From NCBI GenBank assembly GCA_016741915.1, contig JACVCS010000002.1, positions 1 through 64,000 of the forward strand: a stretch of DNA of 64,000 nt, written 5' to 3'. This document shows, piece by piece, positions 1,315 to 56,500 of this stretch (the stretch's first letter is position 1; the number at the start of each line of letters is the position of its first letter). The notes below the pieces were generated by a model. The model made no database searches. It was not told the origin of the DNA and saw only the letters and a program-made list of their open reading frames with translations. The translations under genes and the position numbers were made by a program. This DNA is from Phycisphaerales bacterium (GTDB lineage Bacteria; Planctomycetota; Phycisphaerae; Phycisphaerales; UBA1924).

Positions 1315-4300
1315 TCACGGGCACGGCAGGAACAGCGTATTGAAGAACACGTTGTAATCACCCTCGTTCACGCCGTTGTTGGCGGCGGTGGTGCCGCCGG
1401 TGTCGAAGGGTGGGAGGGCCACGCCCTGGTCGTCGGCGATGTCGCAGGACATGCCGACCGCCGCGGGGCCGATTGAGCTTTGGTAGAAGAACCCCTCGGC
1501 GGAGAAGAACGCGTTGTAATCGCCCTCGTTGATCCCCGCGTTGGGGAACTGCGTGTCGCACGGGCCGAAGGGCGGGAGGAAGGTGCCGTCGTCGCGGGCG
1601 AGGTCGGCCGGGAGGCACTTGCTCCCCACCACGCCGAAGAGGCCGGTCACCGTCGCGGGGCCGCAGGGGCCGACGATCTCGCAGCGCACCTCACCCGCCG
1701 AGCCGTTGCCGAAGAGCGGCCAGGAACCGCCCGTGCGCGTGAGCGTCAGCGTTCTGCCCGTCGCGCCGACGGCGCTAAAAGCAACGCCCGAGCCCGGACC
1801 GCCCGGCGTGTTGGTGCCTTCGTTGATGACGGTCCAATCCGTCGGCGGTTGGCCGTTGCGGCCGCGGTAGCTCCAGACGTACGTGAAGGGCCCGCTGCCG
1901 GCGGTGTTGGCGGTGAATGAGGCGGGGGTCTGCGGGCAGACGAAGCTGCCGCCGATGGAGAGCGCCGTGCCGCAGACGGGGGCGGTGAGCGTGACGCGGA
2001 GCGTCTTGCCGTCGGGCAGGAGTTGGTACGAGAAGATGTTGCCGGGGAGTTGCACGAGGCTGTTCGGATCGCCCGCGAAGCCGCTGTTGAACGTCGGCAG
2101 CGAAAGCCCGAGCTGCTGCGCCCCCGCGCGGGTCATCAGCGAGGTAATCGCTAAACCGGCTGGGTCGATTGAAAGCCCGCCCGCGGCGTAGACCATGTCA
2201 AAGGTGTCGCCAACGGAGGGAACAAAGCCGAGCAGATCGGGCTCAAGGACAATCTGCAAACCACCGGCGAGCGTGGCGCCCTGGCCGACTTTCAGTTGGC
2301 TGTAGGTTTCGCCCTGGACGTTCCCGGCGATGAAGAGGCGCATGACGCCGGTGGTGGTTTGGGTGAACGAGCCGGTGACTTCGAGCAGGCCGTCCCAGAC
2401 TACCGAGCCCGTGGACGTTGCCGAGGAGTTCACAACCGGGTTGGACCTCGCAAAGACAATCTGCGGGCGCGAGGGAGAGCCGCCGCCACCGCTTCCATTT
2501 CCGGGCCAAACCCATGGCGAGGAGTTTGTGCCGCAGCGCCACTGGCAACCCCCACCCCCACCGCCTCCGCCGCCACCCCCACCACCACCGCCGCCACCGC
2601 CGAAGACCACCGTGCCCGGCACGGTGATGTTGTAGACCAGCCCAGCGCGGGTGATGGGGATGATGAGCAGCCCGGCGTTGTAGACGTTGCCGTTGATGAG
2701 ACCATTACCGGTAAAGACCGCGCCCTCGGTGATGTAGAGCGTGCCGGCGCCGTTGTTCAGGTTGAGCGTCTCGCCCGAGCCGAGGGTGAAGGGCACGTTG
2801 GGGGCGACGTACATGTCCTGGAAGCTGAGCGTCTGCGTGCTGCCGCTGCCGGGGTCGGAGCGCGGAGCGGTGACGGTGGCGACCTGCGTCGGCTGGGCGA
2901 TGGTCCAGGTGTTGCCAAAGGTCTGCCCCGAGGGCGTGACAAAGCCGGTGACCGAGCCGATGTTGAGGGTGGGGGCTTGAATGACGATGGGGCTGGCGGG
3001 GTTGGTGCCTTGGATGGTGCCGGCGTTGACGAAATTCACTGTGCCGCTGCTGCCGCAGACCCGGGGACCTTGAAGAATGTACAACCCCGAACCTTGGATC
3101 GAAGCACCGCTTGCCAGCGTCACCACGTTCGCGCCGGGGTTGAAACTCGCGAAGTACGCCGGGGCGTTGTTCACAGCGGCGACGTTGATGGTCCCGGTCA
3201 GCGTCTGATTCCCCTCGAAGCTGATCTGCGCACCGCTGTTCATCGTCAGCGTGCCGTTCAGCGTCACGTTGTTCCAGCGAACGATGCCCGTCAGCGGAGC
3301 GAAGTTGCCATTGATGGTCACGTTGGAGAGTCGGTCGGAGCAACTGGTGTAGTACAGAGATGGCGATCCCGCCGCTGTCGGGGTGAGTGTCACGGTGCTG
3401 TCGAGCAGTTCGTTCTGAATCTCAACAGCACCAATCAATCGGCTGTTCCCGCCGACATGGTCGGCCTGCACAACAACAGGGTTGTTCGTGCTGGTACCCT
3501 CAATCGTGCCGTTGTTGACGATGCTCAGGGTGCCGCTGCTGCCGCAGACCCGGGGACCCTGAAGAATGTACAACCCCGAACCTTGGATCGAAGCGCCGCT
3601 CGCCAGAGTCACCACGTTCGCGCCGGGGTTGAAACTCGCGAAGTACGCCGGGGCGTTGTTCACAGCGGCGACGTTGAGGGTCCCGGTCAGCGTCTGGTTC
3701 CCCTCGAAGCTGATCTGCGCACCGCTGTTCATCGTCAGCGTGCCGTTCAGAGTCACGTTGTTCCAACGAACGATGCCCGTCAGCGGAGCGAAGTTGCCAT
3801 TGATGGTCACGTTGGAGAGTCGGTCGGAGCAACTGGTGTAGTACAGAGATGGCGATCCCGCCGCTGTCGGGGTGAGTGTCACGGTGCTGTCGAGCAGTTC
3901 GTTCTGAATCTCAACAGCACCAATCAATCGGCTGTTCCCGCCGACATGGTCGGCCTGCACAACAACAGGGTTGTTCGTGCTGGTACCCTCAATCGTGCCG
4001 TTGTTGACGATGCTCAGGGTGCCGCTGCTGCCGCAGACCCGGGGACCCTGAAGAATGTACAACCCCGAACCTTGGATCGAAGCGCCGCTCGCCAGAGTCA
4101 CCACGTTCGCGCCGGGGTTGAAACTCGCGAAGTACGCCGGGGCGTTGTTCACAGCGGCGACGTTGAGGGTCCCGGTCAGCGTCTGGTTCCCCTCGAAGCT
4201 GATCTGCGCACCGCTGTTCATCGTCAGCGTGCCGTTCAGAGTCACGTTGTTCCAACGAACGATGCCGGTGAAGGATGGCACATTTGTCGAAATGGTGAGG

Positions 4301-11448: not shown

Positions 11449-11530
11449 AAGGGATCGAGGGATCGTGGGACCAAGAGATCAAGGGTCAAGGGACCGGGGG
11501 ATCGAGGGATCGAGGGATCGAGGGATCGTG
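11449..11530 (+). repeat. GGGATCGA octamer array
   Basis: Immediately after the TolC-like stop codon, degenerate 8-mers of the type gggatcga recur, with the tightest run at 11499-11527. This is one of several 7-8 bp arrays in the window placed directly behind stop codons. Confidence 0.8.
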
Positions 11531-12821: not shown

Positions 12822-12823
12822 AC

Positions 12824-12865
12824 ACATGGCACATGGCACATGGCACATGGCACATGGCAAATGGC
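12824..12865 (+). repeat. ACATGGC heptamer array (six units)
   Basis: Five exact ACATGGC units and one AAATGGC are arranged head to tail, starting three nucleotides after the sua5 stop. The same heptamer flanks the four-helix-bundle gene in the pdh operon (45973-46001 and, inverted, 46414-46431). Confidence 0.95.
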
Positions 12866-13013
12866 ACAACACACAGCCTGAGCGTTGTGGCACTTGCCCG
12901 GTGCTTGCATGACACGTGTTCATGAGCGGAGTGTGGTTTGCGCTTTGGTGCTTTGTTGATGACTCGCGCGTGCTTGGCGTTTGGCGGTGTTTGCGAGTCC
13001 TATTGAAAGTGAA

Positions 13014-24319: not shown

Positions 24320-24378
24320 GCGGGTATTTGCTCGTGCATCAAGCACAAAGATTCACGCGCGGTTGAGCGCAGCGCACT

Positions 24379-24441
24379 GAACTTTGAGCTTTGAGCTTTG
24401 AGTTCTGAGTTCTGAGTTCTGAGCTTTGAGTCCTGAGCTTG
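24379..24441 (+). repeat. GAGCTTT/GAGTTCT heptamer array (nine units)
   Basis: Nine consecutive 7-mers run without a gap between the unknown lipoprotein and trxB. Seven of them are GAGCTTT (three), GAGTTCT (three) and GAGTCCT (one), with GAACTTT and GAGCTTG at the ends; exact units cluster in blocks of two or three. The array ends 20 nt from the trxB stop. Confidence 0.95.
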
Positions 24442-31167: not shown

Positions 31168-31223
31168 GCTTGTGTTGTTCGGAAACGCGGGGCGGCGGTT
31201 TCAAATCGTTGGTGAATGGGAGA

Positions 31224-31338
31224 AGTGGCTGAGTGGCAAAGTGGCAAAGTGGCAAAGTGGGCAACGGGTGCCCTCCGGGCCGGTGCGGTCACTTCACGAC
31301 TTCGCCACTGAGCCACTTTGCCACTTTGCCACTTCCCG
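31224..31338. repeat. Inverted pair of AGTGGCAA octamer arrays
   Basis: The left arm (31224-31259) has AGTGGC(TG/AA) units. The right arm (31308-31338) has the same units in reverse orientation (TTTGCCACTTTGCCACT). About 48 bp of unrelated sequence lies between, with no gene. The arms could fold into a long imperfect hairpin. The layout matches that around the four-helix-bundle gene. Confidence 0.85.
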
Positions 31339-31434
31339 ATAAACCAAACCTTGACGCACGCCACATCCCCATTTCAATACAAACCGCGTCGATTCTCAGG
31401 GTTGCTTTCAGGCTACGCTCTGTCCGCTCTGACC

Positions 31435-44614: not shown

Positions 44615-45967
44615 TTATACCAGGAGCGTGGCGGGCGTTTCGAGCATCTGCTTGACCGTGGCGAGGTATTGAGCGGCCATGGCGCCGTCGATGATGCGGT
44701 GGTCGCTGGACATGGTCATCTGCATTTCGTGACCGATAACCAGTTCGTCCTTGCCGTTGACCGTCTGGACGACGGGCTTCTTCACCGCGGCGCCGACGGC
44801 GAGGATGGCGGCGTTGGGCGGGTTGATGATGGCGGTGAAGTGTTCAACGCCGAACATGCCCAGGTTGCTAATGGTGAAGGTGCTGTCGCCCATCTCGTCG
44901 ATGGTCAGGCCCTTGGTGCGGGCCTTGTCGGCGAGGGATTTGGTTTCGCTGGAGATGAGGCGGAGGCCCTTGCTGTCCGCAGAGCGGATGGTGGCGACGA
45001 CGAGCCCGCCGCCTTTTTCGGGCGGGAGGCTGATGGCGACGCCGACGTTGACGTGATCGAGGAGCTGGATGGATTCCTGACCCTTCGCGCCGACCCAGCG
45101 CGAGTTGACGTACGGGTGCTGGTGCATCGCCAGGGCGCAGGCGCGGACGAGGAAGTCGTTGACGCTGAGCTTCACACCCTGCGGCGAGAGTTGGTCGTTG
45201 AGCTGCTGACGAAGGGCAAGCAGAGCGTCCATCCGCACGGCGACGGTGACCTGGTAATGCGGGATGGTGGTCTTGCTCTCGACAAGGCGTGCGGCGATGG
45301 TGCGGCGCATGTTCGAGAGGGGCTGCGTCTCGGCGCGGAGGGTGCCGGGCGTGTGGACGAAAGCGGAACCCGGCACGACGGCGGCGGCGGCGGGGTGGGC
45401 CGGCGCGGTGCGCTGCGGCGCGGGCGATGAAGTTGCCGGGGCGGCCGCGGGCGTGCTCGAAGTGCTGGAAGCGATGAAGGCTTCGACGTCTTTGCGGACG
45501 ATGCGACCCGAGGGGCCCGAGCCTGAGAGGCGGGAGAGGTCAACGCCCGTGTCGGCGGCGATCTTTCGGGCGAGGGGCGAGGCGAAGATGCGCTCGGAGG
45601 TGTGGCCGTTGGAGGCGTGTGCGGGTGCGTCGAGGACGGCGGTGGAGGAGGAGGCGGAGGACGAGCCGACGGCGTTGGCGGCGGCGGCTTTGCTCGCGCT
45701 GCCCTTCACCTCGGCGCCGCCCGTGCCACCTTCCCACGAGAGGATGAGGGTGCCGACGGGGACGGGCTGGCCTTCCTTGACGTTGAGCTCGGCGATGGTG
45801 CCGTCCTCGAAGGTTTGGAGTTCCATGGTGGCTTTGTCGGTCTCGATGTCGGCGATGACGTCACCAGACTTGACCTTCTGGCCGGGCTTGGCGTGCCACT
45901 TGATGATGGTTCCGACTTCCATGGTGTCGGAGAGGCGGGGCATGGTCAGATTCTTGGGCACGATCAT
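44615..45967 (-). CDS. pdhC: Dihydrolipoamide acetyltransferase (E2) of pyruvate dehydrogenase
   Basis: 450 aa from ATG 45967 (GGAG just upstream). One lipoyl domain at the N-terminus, with MPRLSDTMEVGTI and lipoyl-lysine ETDKATM (Lys45). A peripheral-subunit-binding domain follows (about 122-160; ASPLARKIAADTGVDLSRL, GSGPSGRIVRKDVEAF), then the catalytic acyltransferase domain ending in SSDHRIIDGAMAAQYL (active-site His near 422). It transfers acetyl from lipoate to CoA and forms the complex core. Ala/Ser/Pro linkers separate the domains. It is the last gene of the pdh unit; E3 is not in the window. Its leader consists of the heptamer array left by the inserted four-helix-bundle gene. Confidence 0.95.
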   Translation of the reverse strand: MIVPKNLTMPRLSDTMEVGTIIKWHAKPGQKVKSGDVIADIETDKATMELQTFEDGTIAELNVKEGQPVPVGTLILSWEGGTGGAEVKGSASKAAAANAVGSSSASSSTAVLDAPAHASNGHTSERIFASPLARKIAADTGVDLSRLSGSGPSGRIVRKDVEAFIASSTSSTPAAAPATSSPAPQRTAPAHPAAAAVVPGSAFVHTPGTLRAETQPLSNMRRTIAARLVESKTTIPHYQVTVAVRMDALLALRQQLNDQLSPQGVKLSVNDFLVRACALAMHQHPYVNSRWVGAKGQESIQLLDHVNVGVAISLPPEKGGGLVVATIRSADSKGLRLISSETKSLADKARTKGLTIDEMGDSTFTISNLGMFGVEHFTAIINPPNAAILAVGAAVKKPVVQTVNGKDELVIGHEMQMTMSSDHRIIDGAMAAQYLATVKQMLETPATLLV

Positions 45968-45972
45968 TCTCC

Positions 45973-46001
45973 ACATAGCACATGGCACAGGGCCACATGG
46001 C
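45973..46001 (+). repeat. ACATGGC-type array, left side of the four-helix-bundle gene
   Basis: ACATAGC, ACATGGC, ACAGGGC, then ACATGGC offset by one base. It lies between the four-helix-bundle stop and the pdhC start, and it is the same heptamer as at 12824-12865. Confidence 0.85.
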
Positions 46002-46005
46002 ACAT

Positions 46006-46416
46006 TCAAACTTGTTTCTTCGCACCAACGGCGGTCTTACGGGTACGGGTGATCATTGCACCGAACATCTTCTTGAGTTGGAGTGCTTCCTGCAACAGGG
46101 GATCAAGGCGGTCCTGCTGAATCCACTCTCGCATCACGCACAGTTCAAGCCAGAATCGCGTCTCGTTGAGTTCCTTGATCACGATGCCAAGCGTCTTCGC
46201 AAAATCGGCTCTGCTCATTGCCTCATCGGCTTCGTAGAGGTTCGCCCCGACGCTGCAGCCGCTGGCGGTCAGTTGGTCAAGCAATCGGCGGGAACGGCCT
46301 TGACTTTCGAGGGTCTCCACAACGTGCAGCACCCTGTTGGCGAACGTGCGGACGCGGGTCAGTGTGTCTGCTCGCAATCTGCCCAAGATGCTGTCTCCGA
46401 TGTGCTCTGTGGCCAT
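46006..46416 (-). CDS. Four-helix-bundle protein (IVP/S23/Avd-like family)
   Basis: 136 aa. Helical throughout, with the family pattern: VRTFANRVLHVVETL, then GRSRRLLDQLTASGCSVGANLYEADEA, split by conserved small residues, then FAKTLGIVIKELNETRFWLEL. The family includes proteins encoded in 23S rRNA intervening sequences and the Avd accessory protein of diversity-generating retroelements; basic surfaces suggest nucleic-acid binding. It has no metabolic link to pyruvate dehydrogenase, yet it lies between pdhB and pdhC on their strand. The start ATG is itself part of an ACATGGC heptamer, and the stop is 4 nt from the opposite array. No reverse transcriptase or template repeat is nearby, so it is not a diversity-generating cassette. 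Confidence 0.88.
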   Translation of the reverse strand: MATEHIGDSILGRLRADTLTRVRTFANRVLHVVETLESQGRSRRLLDQLTASGCSVGANLYEADEAMSRADFAKTLGIVIKELNETRFWLELCVMREWIQQDRLDPLLQEALQLKKMFGAMITRTRKTAVGAKKQV

Positions 46417-46431
46417 GTGCCATGTGCGGTG
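46414..46431 (-). repeat. ACATGGC array, right side, inverted
   Basis: On the minus strand the sequence reads GCACATGGCACATGG, two units of the same heptamer as at 45973-46001 but in the opposite orientation. It fills the 15-nt gap between the pdhB stop and the four-helix-bundle start. Confidence 0.8.
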
Positions 46432-47487
46432 TCAGCCCTTGCTCACAACACTCTTCACCGCCCGCATGATCTTGCCCTTGTGCGGCAGGTACTCCGCTTC
46501 CAGGTTCTTCGCGTACGGCGTCGGGACGTCGTCGGTGTTCACACGCACCGGCTGGTGGTCGAGGTAGTCGAAGGCCTTTTCGCAGACCTGCGTGATCACT
46601 TCGCTGGCGACGCTGGCGAAGGGCCAGCATTGGTCGACGACGACGATCTTGTTCGTGCGCTTGATGCTCTGGATGATGCTGTCGATGTCGAGCGGGCGGA
46701 CGGTGCGCATGTCGAGCACGTCGCAGACGATGCCGTCTTTTTCGAGTTCGTCGGCGGCTTCGACGCAGAAGTTCACCGGGCGGCCGAAGGAGACGAGGGT
46801 GACGTCGCTGTTGCGTTCACCCGACCAGGTGCCGCGGCGGAGGGCGGCCTTGCCGAAGGGGATGAAGTACTCCTCCTGCGGGACGTGCGCCTTGTCGGAG
46901 AGCATGCGTTCGCTCTCGAGGAAGAAGACGGGGTCGTCGTCGACGATGGCGGTTTTGAGCAGGCCCTTGGCGTCGTAGGGGTTGCTGGGGATGGCGATCT
47001 TCAGGCCCGGGACGTTGGCGTACATGGCCTCGACGGTCCAGGAGTGGGTGGAGCCGAGCTGACCGCCGGCGCCGTTGTTACCGCGGAAGACGACGGGGCA
47101 GCCCCACTGCCCGCCGGACATGTAGAGCATTTTGGGGACGTTGTTGAGGAGCTGATCGGCGGCGACGAGGGAGAAGGACCAGGACATGAACTCGATGATG
47201 GGGCGCAGGCCGTACATCGCGGCGCCGACGGCGAGCCCGGCGAAGCCGTTCTCGGAGATGGGGGCGTCGATGATGCGCTGGGGCCCGAACTCGTCGAGCA
47301 TGCCCTGCGAGACTTTGTACGCGCCGTTGTAGTACGCGACCTCTTCGCCCATGAGGAAAACGCGGTCGTCCTTGCGCATCTCCTCGGTCATGGCCTCGCG
47401 GAGGGCTTCACGGAACTGGATGACGCGGTCGCCCTGCTCGGAGGGGAGGGGCTTGGAAAAGTCGATTTCGGCGAGTGTGGTCGGCAT
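46432..47487 (-). CDS. pdhB: Pyruvate dehydrogenase E1 beta subunit
   Basis: 351 aa from ATG 47487 (TTG 12 nt earlier is possible). Transketolase-like beta subunit: FLMGEEVAYYNGAYKVSQGM, then ISENGFAGLAVGAAMYGLRP, then FMSWSFSLVAADQL and RGNNGAGGQLGSTHS. The C-terminal transketolase domain has IVVVDQCWPFASVASEVITQ. With E1 alpha it decarboxylates pyruvate using thiamine pyrophosphate and acetylates the E2 lipoyl arm. It is 179 nt downstream of pdhA on the same strand, with a hairpin repeat in the gap. Confidence 0.96.
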   Translation of the reverse strand: MPTTLAEIDFSKPLPSEQGDRVIQFREALREAMTEEMRKDDRVFLMGEEVAYYNGAYKVSQGMLDEFGPQRIIDAPISENGFAGLAVGAAMYGLRPIIEFMSWSFSLVAADQLLNNVPKMLYMSGGQWGCPVVFRGNNGAGGQLGSTHSWTVEAMYANVPGLKIAIPSNPYDAKGLLKTAIVDDDPVFFLESERMLSDKAHVPQEEYFIPFGKAALRRGTWSGERNSDVTLVSFGRPVNFCVEAADELEKDGIVCDVLDMRTVRPLDIDSIIQSIKRTNKIVVVDQCWPFASVASEVITQVCEKAFDYLDHQPVRVNTDDVPTPYAKNLEAEYLPHKGKIMRAVKSVVSKG

Positions 47488-47626
47488 GGGGAGGCTCAAC
47501 TTTCAACAGAAACAGCACACGATATCGGTTGTGTGATTCGTTCGAGATCGGTCAACGGACTCTTCAAGGACGCTCGGCAGGTTTGCCTGAGCCGGGCGTC
47601 ATCGAAGAGGGCTTCATCGCTCCGGC

Positions 47627-53595: not shown

Positions 53596-56500
53596 ATGAG
53601 CCAGAGCACCACGCAAACGGGTCAAACCAGCACGCAATCCCTCGCGCACAGCGCGGGGCTTTTGGAATCCATGCCCAAGCAGTTCGTCCCGGTTGAGCAC
53701 GAGAACCGCATCAGTGCGCGCTGGGAGAAAGCCCGCGCCTTCCGGGCTGATCCCGGCGCCGTGCTGCGTGGCGAGCGCAAGCCCTTCTCGATGTTCATCC
53801 CGCCTCCGAACGTCACCGGTGCGCTGCACCTCGGGCACGCGCTGAACAACACGCTGCAGGACGTGCTCACGCGGTACCACCGCATGGCGGGGTACGAAAC
53901 ACTCTGGATGCCCGGGACCGACCACGCCGGCATCGCCACGCAGGCGGTGGTGGAGAAGCGTCTACGAAAAGACGGCGAGCTGAAAGGCCCGCTCAAAGAC
54001 GCCGACCGCAACGGCGGCTGGACCCGCGAGAAGTTCGTCACCAAGGTGCAGGAGTGGAAAGACGAGTACGAAGCGCGGATCACCAACCAGCTCAAGGCGA
54101 TGGGGGTGAGCTGTGATTTCTCGCGCCAGCGCTTCACGATGGACCCGGTGTGCGCCGCCGCGGTGCGCGAGGCGTTCTTTCGACTCTTCAGCGACGGGCT
54201 GATCTATCGCGGCAAGCGTCTGGTGAACTGGGACCCCGCGCTGCAGACGGCCGTGGCGGACGATGAGTGCTACGACGAAGAGATCAACGGCAACTTCTAT
54301 TACCTGCGGTATCCGCTGGTGCACGCCTCAAGCCAGGACCCGGCGATCCGCACGGGCGGGCGCGAGAATGTCGATCCGCTGCCGCTGACATGGGGCGAAC
54401 TCGCCCGGCGTGGTTACCCCGGCGCGGAGCAGTTCGACAGCGACGTGCAGGCGTGGGTGACCGTCGCCACCACGCGTCCGGAGACGTACCTGGGCGATAC
54501 CGCCGTCGCGGTGAACCCGCACGACCCGCGGGCGAAGGCCCTTCGCGGCGTCTTCATCGAGCTGCCCGTGGTGGGGCGCATCATCCCGATCATCGAGGAT
54601 GAGTACGTGGTGCTGCCGCGCGAGGTGGCCGAGCGACTCGGGCGCGAGGACGACGCGAAAGACCCCAAGAGCGCCTTCGCGTCGGGGTTCCTGAAGGTCA
54701 CGCCCGCGCACGATCAGAACGACTGGGAGCTCGGCCTGCGCCACGGCCTGGCGGTGATCAACGTCATGGCCCCCGACGGCAGCATCTCCAGCACGCACGG
54801 CTGGTCCGACGTGGGCAACGCAACCATCTTCGTGGGCAAAAAGCGCGAAGACGCCCGCAAGAGCGTGGTGAAGTACTTCGAGGAGCATTCGATCCAAGGC
54901 TCGGCGTACAAACTGCTCGAACAGATCAAGCCTTACCGCCACAGCGTCAAACACAGCGACCGCAGCAAGGCGATCGTGGAGCCGTACCTCAGCGACCAGT
55001 GGTACGTGAAGGTGACCGACCCGCGGATGGCGAAGGCGGCGAATGAGACGCTGGCGAAGCCGGAGGCACTGGGCACTGGGCATCAGGCATCAGGCAAAGC
55101 AGAAGACACCACGCACCTGACCTTCCACCCCGAGCGCTATGCGAAGACCTTCCAGCAGTGGCACGAGGGGATTCGGGACTGGTGCATCAGCCGGCAGCTT
55201 TGGTGGGGGCATCGGATTCCGGTGTGGGGTACCAAACAGGGCCATCAACATGATCTCCGTTTTCTGATGCAAGTTCGAGAGTGGGAGAAAGCAGGTCGGG
55301 TGTTCGCGAAGTTCACGAACGATCAGATCGAGACAGACGCTGGCGCAGGAGCGAAGTTCCCCCACTACATCTGCGTACGGAGCCCTGACGATCGTGAAGT
55401 GATCGCAGCAATCGAAGCCGACGGCTTCACCCAAGACCCCGACGTCCTCGACACCTGGTTCTCCTCCGCCCTCTGGCCGCTCAGCACGCTGGGCTGGCCT
55501 GATGCCGCCGCGGCGGAGAAGATGCTCCCCGGCTCGCAGTTCACCGGCTTGCTCGCCGCGTTCAACCCCTCCAGCGTCCTCAGCACCGCGCGCGAGATCA
55601 TCACCCTGTGGGTCTCGCGCATGGTGATGATGAATCGCTACATGCTCCCTCCTCGTGCTCCAGGACACTTTGCAGCAACGTGGCGCAAGGTCATCGATCT
55701 CAATCGGGAAGAGGACTTTGCCGCGAATAGCAAACCCTTCGGACCAGATCCGAACAAGGGACCATCATTCAGCGACATGCTGATGAACTGCGTGGACGGC
55801 ATGAGCGTGGAAGCAACCCGACTTTCGGACGGTCAGAAAGTTGATCCGTCAACGCTCTTCACCACGAATACGTCGTCGAAAGATCTGTACGAGTTCCGGA
55901 TTCAGGTGCAGTCACCCGAACTCGTCAAAACATGGCAACTCGTCGAAGCTGGCTTTGAACCCGATTTCACCCGCTCAAGTGCGAAGGCCAGCACCGGCCC
56001 CGTCCCCTTCCGCAACGTCTTCGTTCACGCCGTCGTGCAGGACGGCGAGGGCAAGAAGATGTCCAAGTCCGCCGGCAACGGCGTCGATCCGCTCGACATC
56101 ATCGCCAGCCACGGCGCCGATGCCATGCGCTTCACGCTCTGCCAGATGTCCACGCAGACTCAGGACGTCCGCATGCCCGTGCAGGTGGACTCAAAGACCG
56201 GCAAGAACACCTCGCCCAAGTTCGATCTCGGCCGCTCCTTCGCCAGCAAGCTCTGGAACGCGTGCCGATTCGCGCTGACGATGCTCGAAGGCTCCGCGAG
56301 TGCGTCAACCGACAGCACGCCGATCGACCCCGCGTCGCTGAGCCTCGTTGACCGCTGGATGCTCTCGCGTCTGCAACGCGGCATCGCTGCGTGCGAGAAG
56401 GCGATCCACGCCTACGAGTTCAATTCGTACGCCGAGGCGTGCTACGACCTTCTGTGGCGTGATTTCTGCGACTTCTACTTGGAGGCGATCAAGCCGACGG

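Follow-up and report, generated by a model that had tools for sequence, protein, structure and literature searches.

A four-helix-bundle gene bounded by inverted heptamer arrays in a planctomycete pyruvate dehydrogenase operon: evidence pointing to a widespread mobile or selfish DNA element

The intervening sequence (IVS) of the Coxiella burnetii 23S rRNA is closed by a 28-bp terminal stem, carries an S23 ORF in the loop, is cut by RNase III and has been termed a selfish element (PMC4990558). Structures of the S23 family (TIGR02436) have been solved, while its function is unassigned; heptamer arrays, likewise, have long been reported from bacteria without an owner. The GGGAATC repeats of Xanthomonas form mostly four-unit arrays, with 70-75 inverted pairs per genome and with marked neighbours that include groES and dnaE, and were linked in that study to no gene or mobile element (PMC4692102); heptanucleotide repeats of cyanobacteria (Calothrix) are among the work cited there. 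Linking the protein family to such arrays gives both a testable context.

The window analysed here is a 64,000-nt stretch of a Phycisphaerales genome (contig JACVCS010000002.1, positions 1 to 64,000). At 45978-46427 it holds an element of ~450 bp, in which a TIGR02436 (S23/IVS-type) gene is bounded by inverted CACATGG arrays (Table 1). The gene order on the minus strand, across 44615-47499, is pdhB, four-helix gene and pdhC, with the element beginning 4 nt beyond the stop codon of pdhB. The encoded protein scores 78.8 bits against the TIGR02436 profile, the curated cut-off of which is 24. A first-pass annotation of this DNA had described a 136-aa four-helix-bundle gene separating pdhB from pdhC, with its start ATG inside an ACATGGC unit, its stop 4 nt from an array and the two arrays facing opposite ways, and the coordinates bear out each of these points: the ATG (46416-46414) falls within an ACATGGC unit, the copy closest to the stop codon is 4 nt away, and the copies at 45980 and 45995 (plus strand) are oriented oppositely to those at 46412 and 46419 (minus strand). 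The window contains 17 copies of ACATGGC, where 7.8 are expected, and none of 100 shuffles reached this count. On the coding strand, the two arms could pair over ~25 bp with a duplex energy of -50.5 kcal/mol (shuffled mean -17.5; as low in 0 of 500 shuffles), and a free fold of the entire element also closes this stem, with a total energy that is modestly unusual (z -1.67). The ORF of the window element is enclosed by terminal inverted repeats, and the start codon is buried in the arm stem. Repeats of this kind, each with ~4-5 units of 7 or 8 nt and a length of about 32 bp, leave hardly any space for the gene to have its own promoter. As the element lies just after a stop codon and is co-oriented with the host operon, it is probably transcribed together with its neighbours.

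Table 1. Features of the window that are discussed in the text (coordinates from the first letter of the window).
Feature	Position	Strand	Basis
Four-helix-bundle gene, 136 aa (TIGR02436 / S23-IVP family)	46006..46416	-	ORF call, 78.8 bits, AlphaFold2 model, Foldseek
5' arm, coding sense GCACATGGCACATGGCCACAGAGCACAT, includes start codon	46400..46427	-	
3' arm, coding sense GAATGTGCCATGTGGCCCTGTGCCATGTGC, inverse of 5' arm, overlapping stop codon	45978..46007	-	
pdhB (E1 beta)	46432..47499	-	NF006667, 437.9 bits
pdhC (E2), from ATG with GGAG motif just upstream, directly after element	44615..45967	-	TIGR01349 match
Gene-less array of the window unit, five ACATGGC and one AAATGGC	12823..12868	+	
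Gene-less inverted pair of 8-nt arrays AAGTGGCA, short loop; same element class, different unit	31219..31344	.	
Gene-less array, GGGATCGA-type 8-mers	11450..11528	+	

The AlphaFold2 model of the window protein consists of four helices (pLDDT 93.1). The nearest structures returned by Foldseek were, in order, the S23-family entries 2rld (TMt 0.86-0.92) and 2gsc (about 0.81; the Xanthomonas campestris protein XCC0516), followed by Avd (4dwl), and the profile match to 2rld reached 1.5e-29; 2rld and 2gsc comprise five chains each. The kinship with IVS proteins and Avd that the first-pass annotation had stated for this gene thus holds at the level of the fold. Being a four-helix bundle by both profile and model, the window gene is not a Y1 (HUH) transposase. 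Ratios of dN/dS between 0.04 and 0.28 in six gene pairs (two more pairs were saturated at synonymous sites) indicate that the protein is under purifying selection and therefore matters, be it for the host or for the element.

That a gene of this family and its arrays belong together had been proposed from the window alone, and the flanks of other family members agree. For 122 TIGR02436 genes from the family, the order and the phylum, each gene's upstream sequence was compared with its downstream sequence in reverse complement. Scores between the arms of one locus had a median of 20, those between arms of different loci a mean of 7.9; the former exceeded the cross-locus 95% level (10.5) in 101 of the 122 loci (family 62/69, order 13/13, phylum 26/40), and displaced windows, used as a control, scored at most 13.5. 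Inverted arrays were also present at 65 of 80 loci in a public-genome scan of all bacteria, these being the best 80 of at least 585 loci and biased towards one subfamily, from Bacteroidota, Pseudomonadota, Verrucomicrobiota, Acidobacteriota, Chloroflexota, Cyanobacteriota, an archaeal MAG and others. Clear arms were missing at 21 of the 122 and 15 of the 80 loci; the former, many of them from a few genomes, may represent another subfamily. Units are 7 nt long in 73 loci, 8 nt in 25 and 9 nt in 3, number 4.4 per arm in the median (interquartile about 4.1-5.3) over a paired segment of ~32 nt, and are private to each locus (e.g., GGACAGT, CGAAAAG, GGCATTC, AGGCACT and GAGCGACG). A tblastn search of 50,697 phage records gave no match; 37 plasmid records matched, mostly cyanobacterial, and all six cyanobacterial plasmid copies have arms. 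On cyanobacterial plasmids of two genera (L350 and L352), a four-helix gene with heptamer arms lies between cas6 and cas4.

The two arms of a locus agree better in register (identity 0.87) than after a shift by one unit (0.77), the former being higher in 48 of 54 loci, so that they have individual unit variants in common, beyond a consensus. Where different genomes have an element at the same junction, their units differ, yet the arms of each genome match each other: own and cross-genome scores are 18.1 and 8.9 at pdhB-pdhC, 24.2 and 11.2 at dcd-nrdJ, and 28.5 and 13.0 in dnaE2. Cross-locus, same-site cross-genome and displaced-window controls exclude shared composition or genome-wide units as the source of the match. 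Furthermore, the unit goes with the protein. Unit similarity correlates with protein identity (Mantel r 0.355, 0 of 2000 permutations, 62 family loci), and units are equally long in 0.82-1.00 of close protein pairs but in about 0.5 of distant ones; paralogues within one genome have different units. A loose G-N-N-A pattern is common to the 7-mers above the level of letter-shuffled units, clearly within the family and more weakly outside it.

Arrays are also dispersed without a gene. Six heptamers had been listed at 12824-12865 in the first-pass annotation; a gene-less array is indeed located there, with five exact copies, the sixth being a variant (Table 1). A survey of about 332 kb of the window genome (about 9% of the genome; two small contigs of the surveyed DNA read N; lags 4-16 tested) found ~45 arrays, most often with lags of 7 and 8, against two four-helix genes in the whole genome. 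The second of these genes lies in an element at accB-accC (contig C81) with units of the GGGATCGA type, and several unit families of this genome have no resident four-helix gene. Two successive exact window units (ACATGGCx2) gave 13 matches in the window genome and one locus in its congener, G001, with none in 35 other genomes. Similarly, GGACAGTx2, from the unit of an element in G007, gave 19 matches at about ten loci in that genome and none in 36 others; the places fetched comprise three gene-less hairpins and otherwise single arms. A third unit, AAATCAGC of G031, showed no dispersal within G031. The arms of the hairpin at 31219-31344 have more than 30 matches in the congener. Other repeats in the window include a heptamer array (GGCACTG/GGCATCA) in frame within an apparent valyl-tRNA synthetase (55065-55096), a lone array of TGAGTTC/TGAGCTT heptamers (24378-24440) near which no inverted partner was noticed, a tandem array CTCCGCGCGGGTACCTTTTTA with periods of 21/42/63 nt (15-212) and a tandem repeat with a period of 489 bp and 2.5 copies that are 98% alike (3041-4266). 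Elsewhere in the genome, a hairpin-like locus (L014, contig C138) has arms of two unit families (GGGATCGA and CATGTGC), as if two elements had recombined, and ~24-nt similar units (AAGGAGTTT...GGCCG) adjoin an ACATGGC array from about position 560 of another (L296, contig C53).

The pdhB-pdhC element is present in 6 of 37 family genomes (G000, which is the window genome, G004, G007, G014, G030 and G034). The junction is empty, with a plain short gap, in the sole congener compared and in many other relatives, and a gap of 106 nt in G009 resembles a gene-less remnant; the search for empty sites that the first-pass annotation had suggested thus found them in most relatives, and the element is not fixed. 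Sites recurring within the family are groES-groEL (15 loci), dcd-nrdJ (13), pdhB-pdhC (6), a single internal site of dnaE2 (6), accB-accC (3) and also iscS-iscU, neighbours other than pdhB and pdhC being named by eye from translations and by tblastn between loci. Two of these junctions are occupied beyond the phylum as well: Luteimonas and Rhodanobacter have an element at accB-accC, and a Kiritimatiellaeota MAG has one at groES-groEL. From the upstream stop codon to the left array the distance is 4 nt in the median (interquartile 1-6; 29 loci measured), and among armed loci the gene runs with both neighbours in 76 and against both in 6, counts that are approximate because neighbours were called by open frame and GC3. 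The gene tree follows the insertion site strongly, in that the 8 sites need 12 changes on it where shuffled sites need 30 on average, and therefore most copies are likely to be old and inherited in place, with movement comparatively rare. The trees rest on about 110 columns, and the shortness of the proteins leaves many forks open. In neither of them do the pdhB-pdhC copies form one clade; one tree forces at least two changes, and although the second by itself would be compatible with one origin, a single old insertion at this junction was set aside. The idea of a small mobile unit at gene ends is upheld in part: gene and arrays recur together, as a single entity, at many gene ends, a few nucleotides past the stop codon, but no movement event or target-site duplication was seen. 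Words shared by the flanks outside the arrays are 3.24 nt long against 3.10 across loci, a weak comparison given the fuzzy array ends.

The further proposal that insertion leaves operons unbroken fits the copies that sit after stop codons, but six elements (L117, L123, L126, L130, L133 and L145) are located inside dnaE2, in frame and at one site. In all six, no stop interrupts the dnaE2 frame across the two arms and the four-helix gene, the latter itself using another frame; such an in-frame insertion within a coding gene is not the situation of the window copy. When synonymous codons of the four-helix gene were permuted, the probabilities of zero stops in the host frame were 0.26, 0.11, 0.002, 0.013, 0.020 and 0.055, and the corresponding frame is stop-free in just 4 of 63 other family elements. 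On this basis, translation of dnaE2 through the element is likely. These copies represent a gene overlapping, out of frame, a stretch that is held open for the host polymerase.

The most probable reading, to which we assign a probability of roughly 0.6, is that the gene and its two arrays constitute one small selfish or mobile DNA element, REPtron-like, that moves rarely and is mostly inherited in place. It could be argued instead that the arrays are independent host short-tandem-repeat families, moved or expanded by another system, and that the four-helix gene is a mere passenger among them. The arrays of the window genome do far outnumber its four-helix genes, some of their unit families have no such gene in residence, and the Xanthomonas heptamers were described with no gene assigned to them (PMC4692102). 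However, a passenger would hardly be expected to have arms around most sampled members of its family in many phyla, to be followed by the sequence and length of the unit along the protein tree, to differ in unit from its paralogue in the same genome, or to reside in the very genome or genus to which its unit is restricted, as for two of the units; we regard this explanation as unlikely. The possibility of an ordinary host operon gene, equipped with a repeat-based attenuator or translation-control hairpin and lacking mobility, draws on the strong purifying selection, the co-orientation with the operon and the start codon within the stem of the window copy. It is highly improbable in view of the patchy presence at pdhB-pdhC, including the absence from the congener, the split of these copies in both trees, and the occurrence of the family at unrelated operons and inside dnaE2.

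An element acting at the RNA level deserves separate attention. Its arms would pair in the transcript and RNase III would remove the hairpin, rendering insertion into an operon harmless. The Coxiella IVS has the same protein family and the same gene-in-loop layout (PMC4990558), the window arms give a strong RNA duplex, and in nearly all cases gene and operon point the same way. If the arms were maintained by pairing of the sense RNA, however, G.U mismatches should outnumber those of the A.C type, and over 165 loci the two types number 189 and 209 (p 0.34). On this count an RNA hairpin was rejected as the main cause of arm matching; the arms have rather the look of terminal repeats of the DNA itself, which recopying, or pairing of either DNA strand, would keep alike. 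The dnaE2 frame, open through the element in every copy, likewise points to read-through translation rather than excision. An Rfam rRNA search around 40 loci, that of the window included, gave no match, and a location of the window element in an rRNA gene is excluded by its position between pdhB and pdhC. Taken together, these results render an RNA-level element rather improbable, although single copies may still act in this way.

The architecture around most sampled relatives points to a widespread, apparently undescribed mobile or selfish DNA element, and a feasible model for such an element may be as follows. An oligomer of the four-helix protein, as suggested by the five chains of the solved relatives and by the resemblance to the pentameric Avd, would recognize the arm unit as DNA and would either unite the two ends or offer them in hairpin form to an enzyme of replication, recombination or transposition that is provided in trans. 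Copying of one arm onto the other may be part of this process and would keep the arms alike while the unit drifts; gene-less pairs would follow passively, and the element would occasionally gain a new junction. A Y1/RAYT transposase was considered as the partner enzyme, but the palindromes that flank most Y1 genes in eight relatives are of another, GC-rich class, and thus Y1 is not obviously the partner. Protein, ends, gene-less satellites and preferred sites (inside dnaE2, or behind the stop codons of genes in conserved operons) would then belong to one type of element, and, provided that the protein does read the unit, natural protein-unit pairs in their hundreds could be used as a recognition code. 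It is also tempting to speculate, tentatively, that S23-family proteins are the sequence-specific factor of a pan-bacterial mobile DNA with private 7/8-nt arrays at its ends, in which protein and unit co-evolve and the arms are recopied from each other, and whose gene-less descendants include the heptamer arrays scattered over cyanobacteria, xanthomonads and planctomycetes. For Xanthomonas, the link to four-helix elements is proposed from its relatives Luteimonas and Rhodanobacter, where elements with GGGAATC/GGGATTC arms are located at accB-accC.

Compared with known systems, the elements described here resemble the 23S rRNA IVS in their protein family, in an ORF placed between terminal inverted repeats and in a size of about 430-450 bp. 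By contrast, they are located at mRNA junctions or inside dnaE2 and not in rRNA, their arms are locus-private 7/8-nt arrays with no G.U signature, and gene-less arrays are spread in the genome. As in the RAYT/REP/REPIN system (PMC3116915), a gene is situated beside repeats of its own class that are also present as gene-less inverted pairs, and gene-less dispersal of the flanking repeats was found for two of three units, including that of the window; however, the element contains no Y1 transposase, and the repeats are tandem 7/8-mers instead of single palindromes. Avd of diversity-generating retroelements (4dwl) shares a similar fold (TM 0.79 on the target) but only 12% sequence identity, and neither a reverse transcriptase nor a template repeat is found among the immediate neighbours of the window gene. 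The dnaE2 copies are similar to the Rickettsia palindromic elements (PMC10969869) in that they are inserted in a coding gene with the host frame open; the latter are about 150 bp long and form fused coding segments, whereas the former encode a second, separate protein in another frame. The TAACTGA arrays of marine Beggiatoaceae (PMC4679880) are likewise intergenic heptamer arrays of unknown origin, but there one unit is repeated directly, upstream of genes, and is inverted in a single instance, and the text of that paper mentions no four-helix gene. A search of the open literature, with preprints and most subscription papers outside its range, returned no description of four-helix genes linked to inverted heptamer arrays. 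The protein family, the IVS elements, the REPINs and the heptamer arrays of Xanthomonas and Beggiatoaceae were known already, and what is apparently new is the association of the four-helix gene with inverted arrays.
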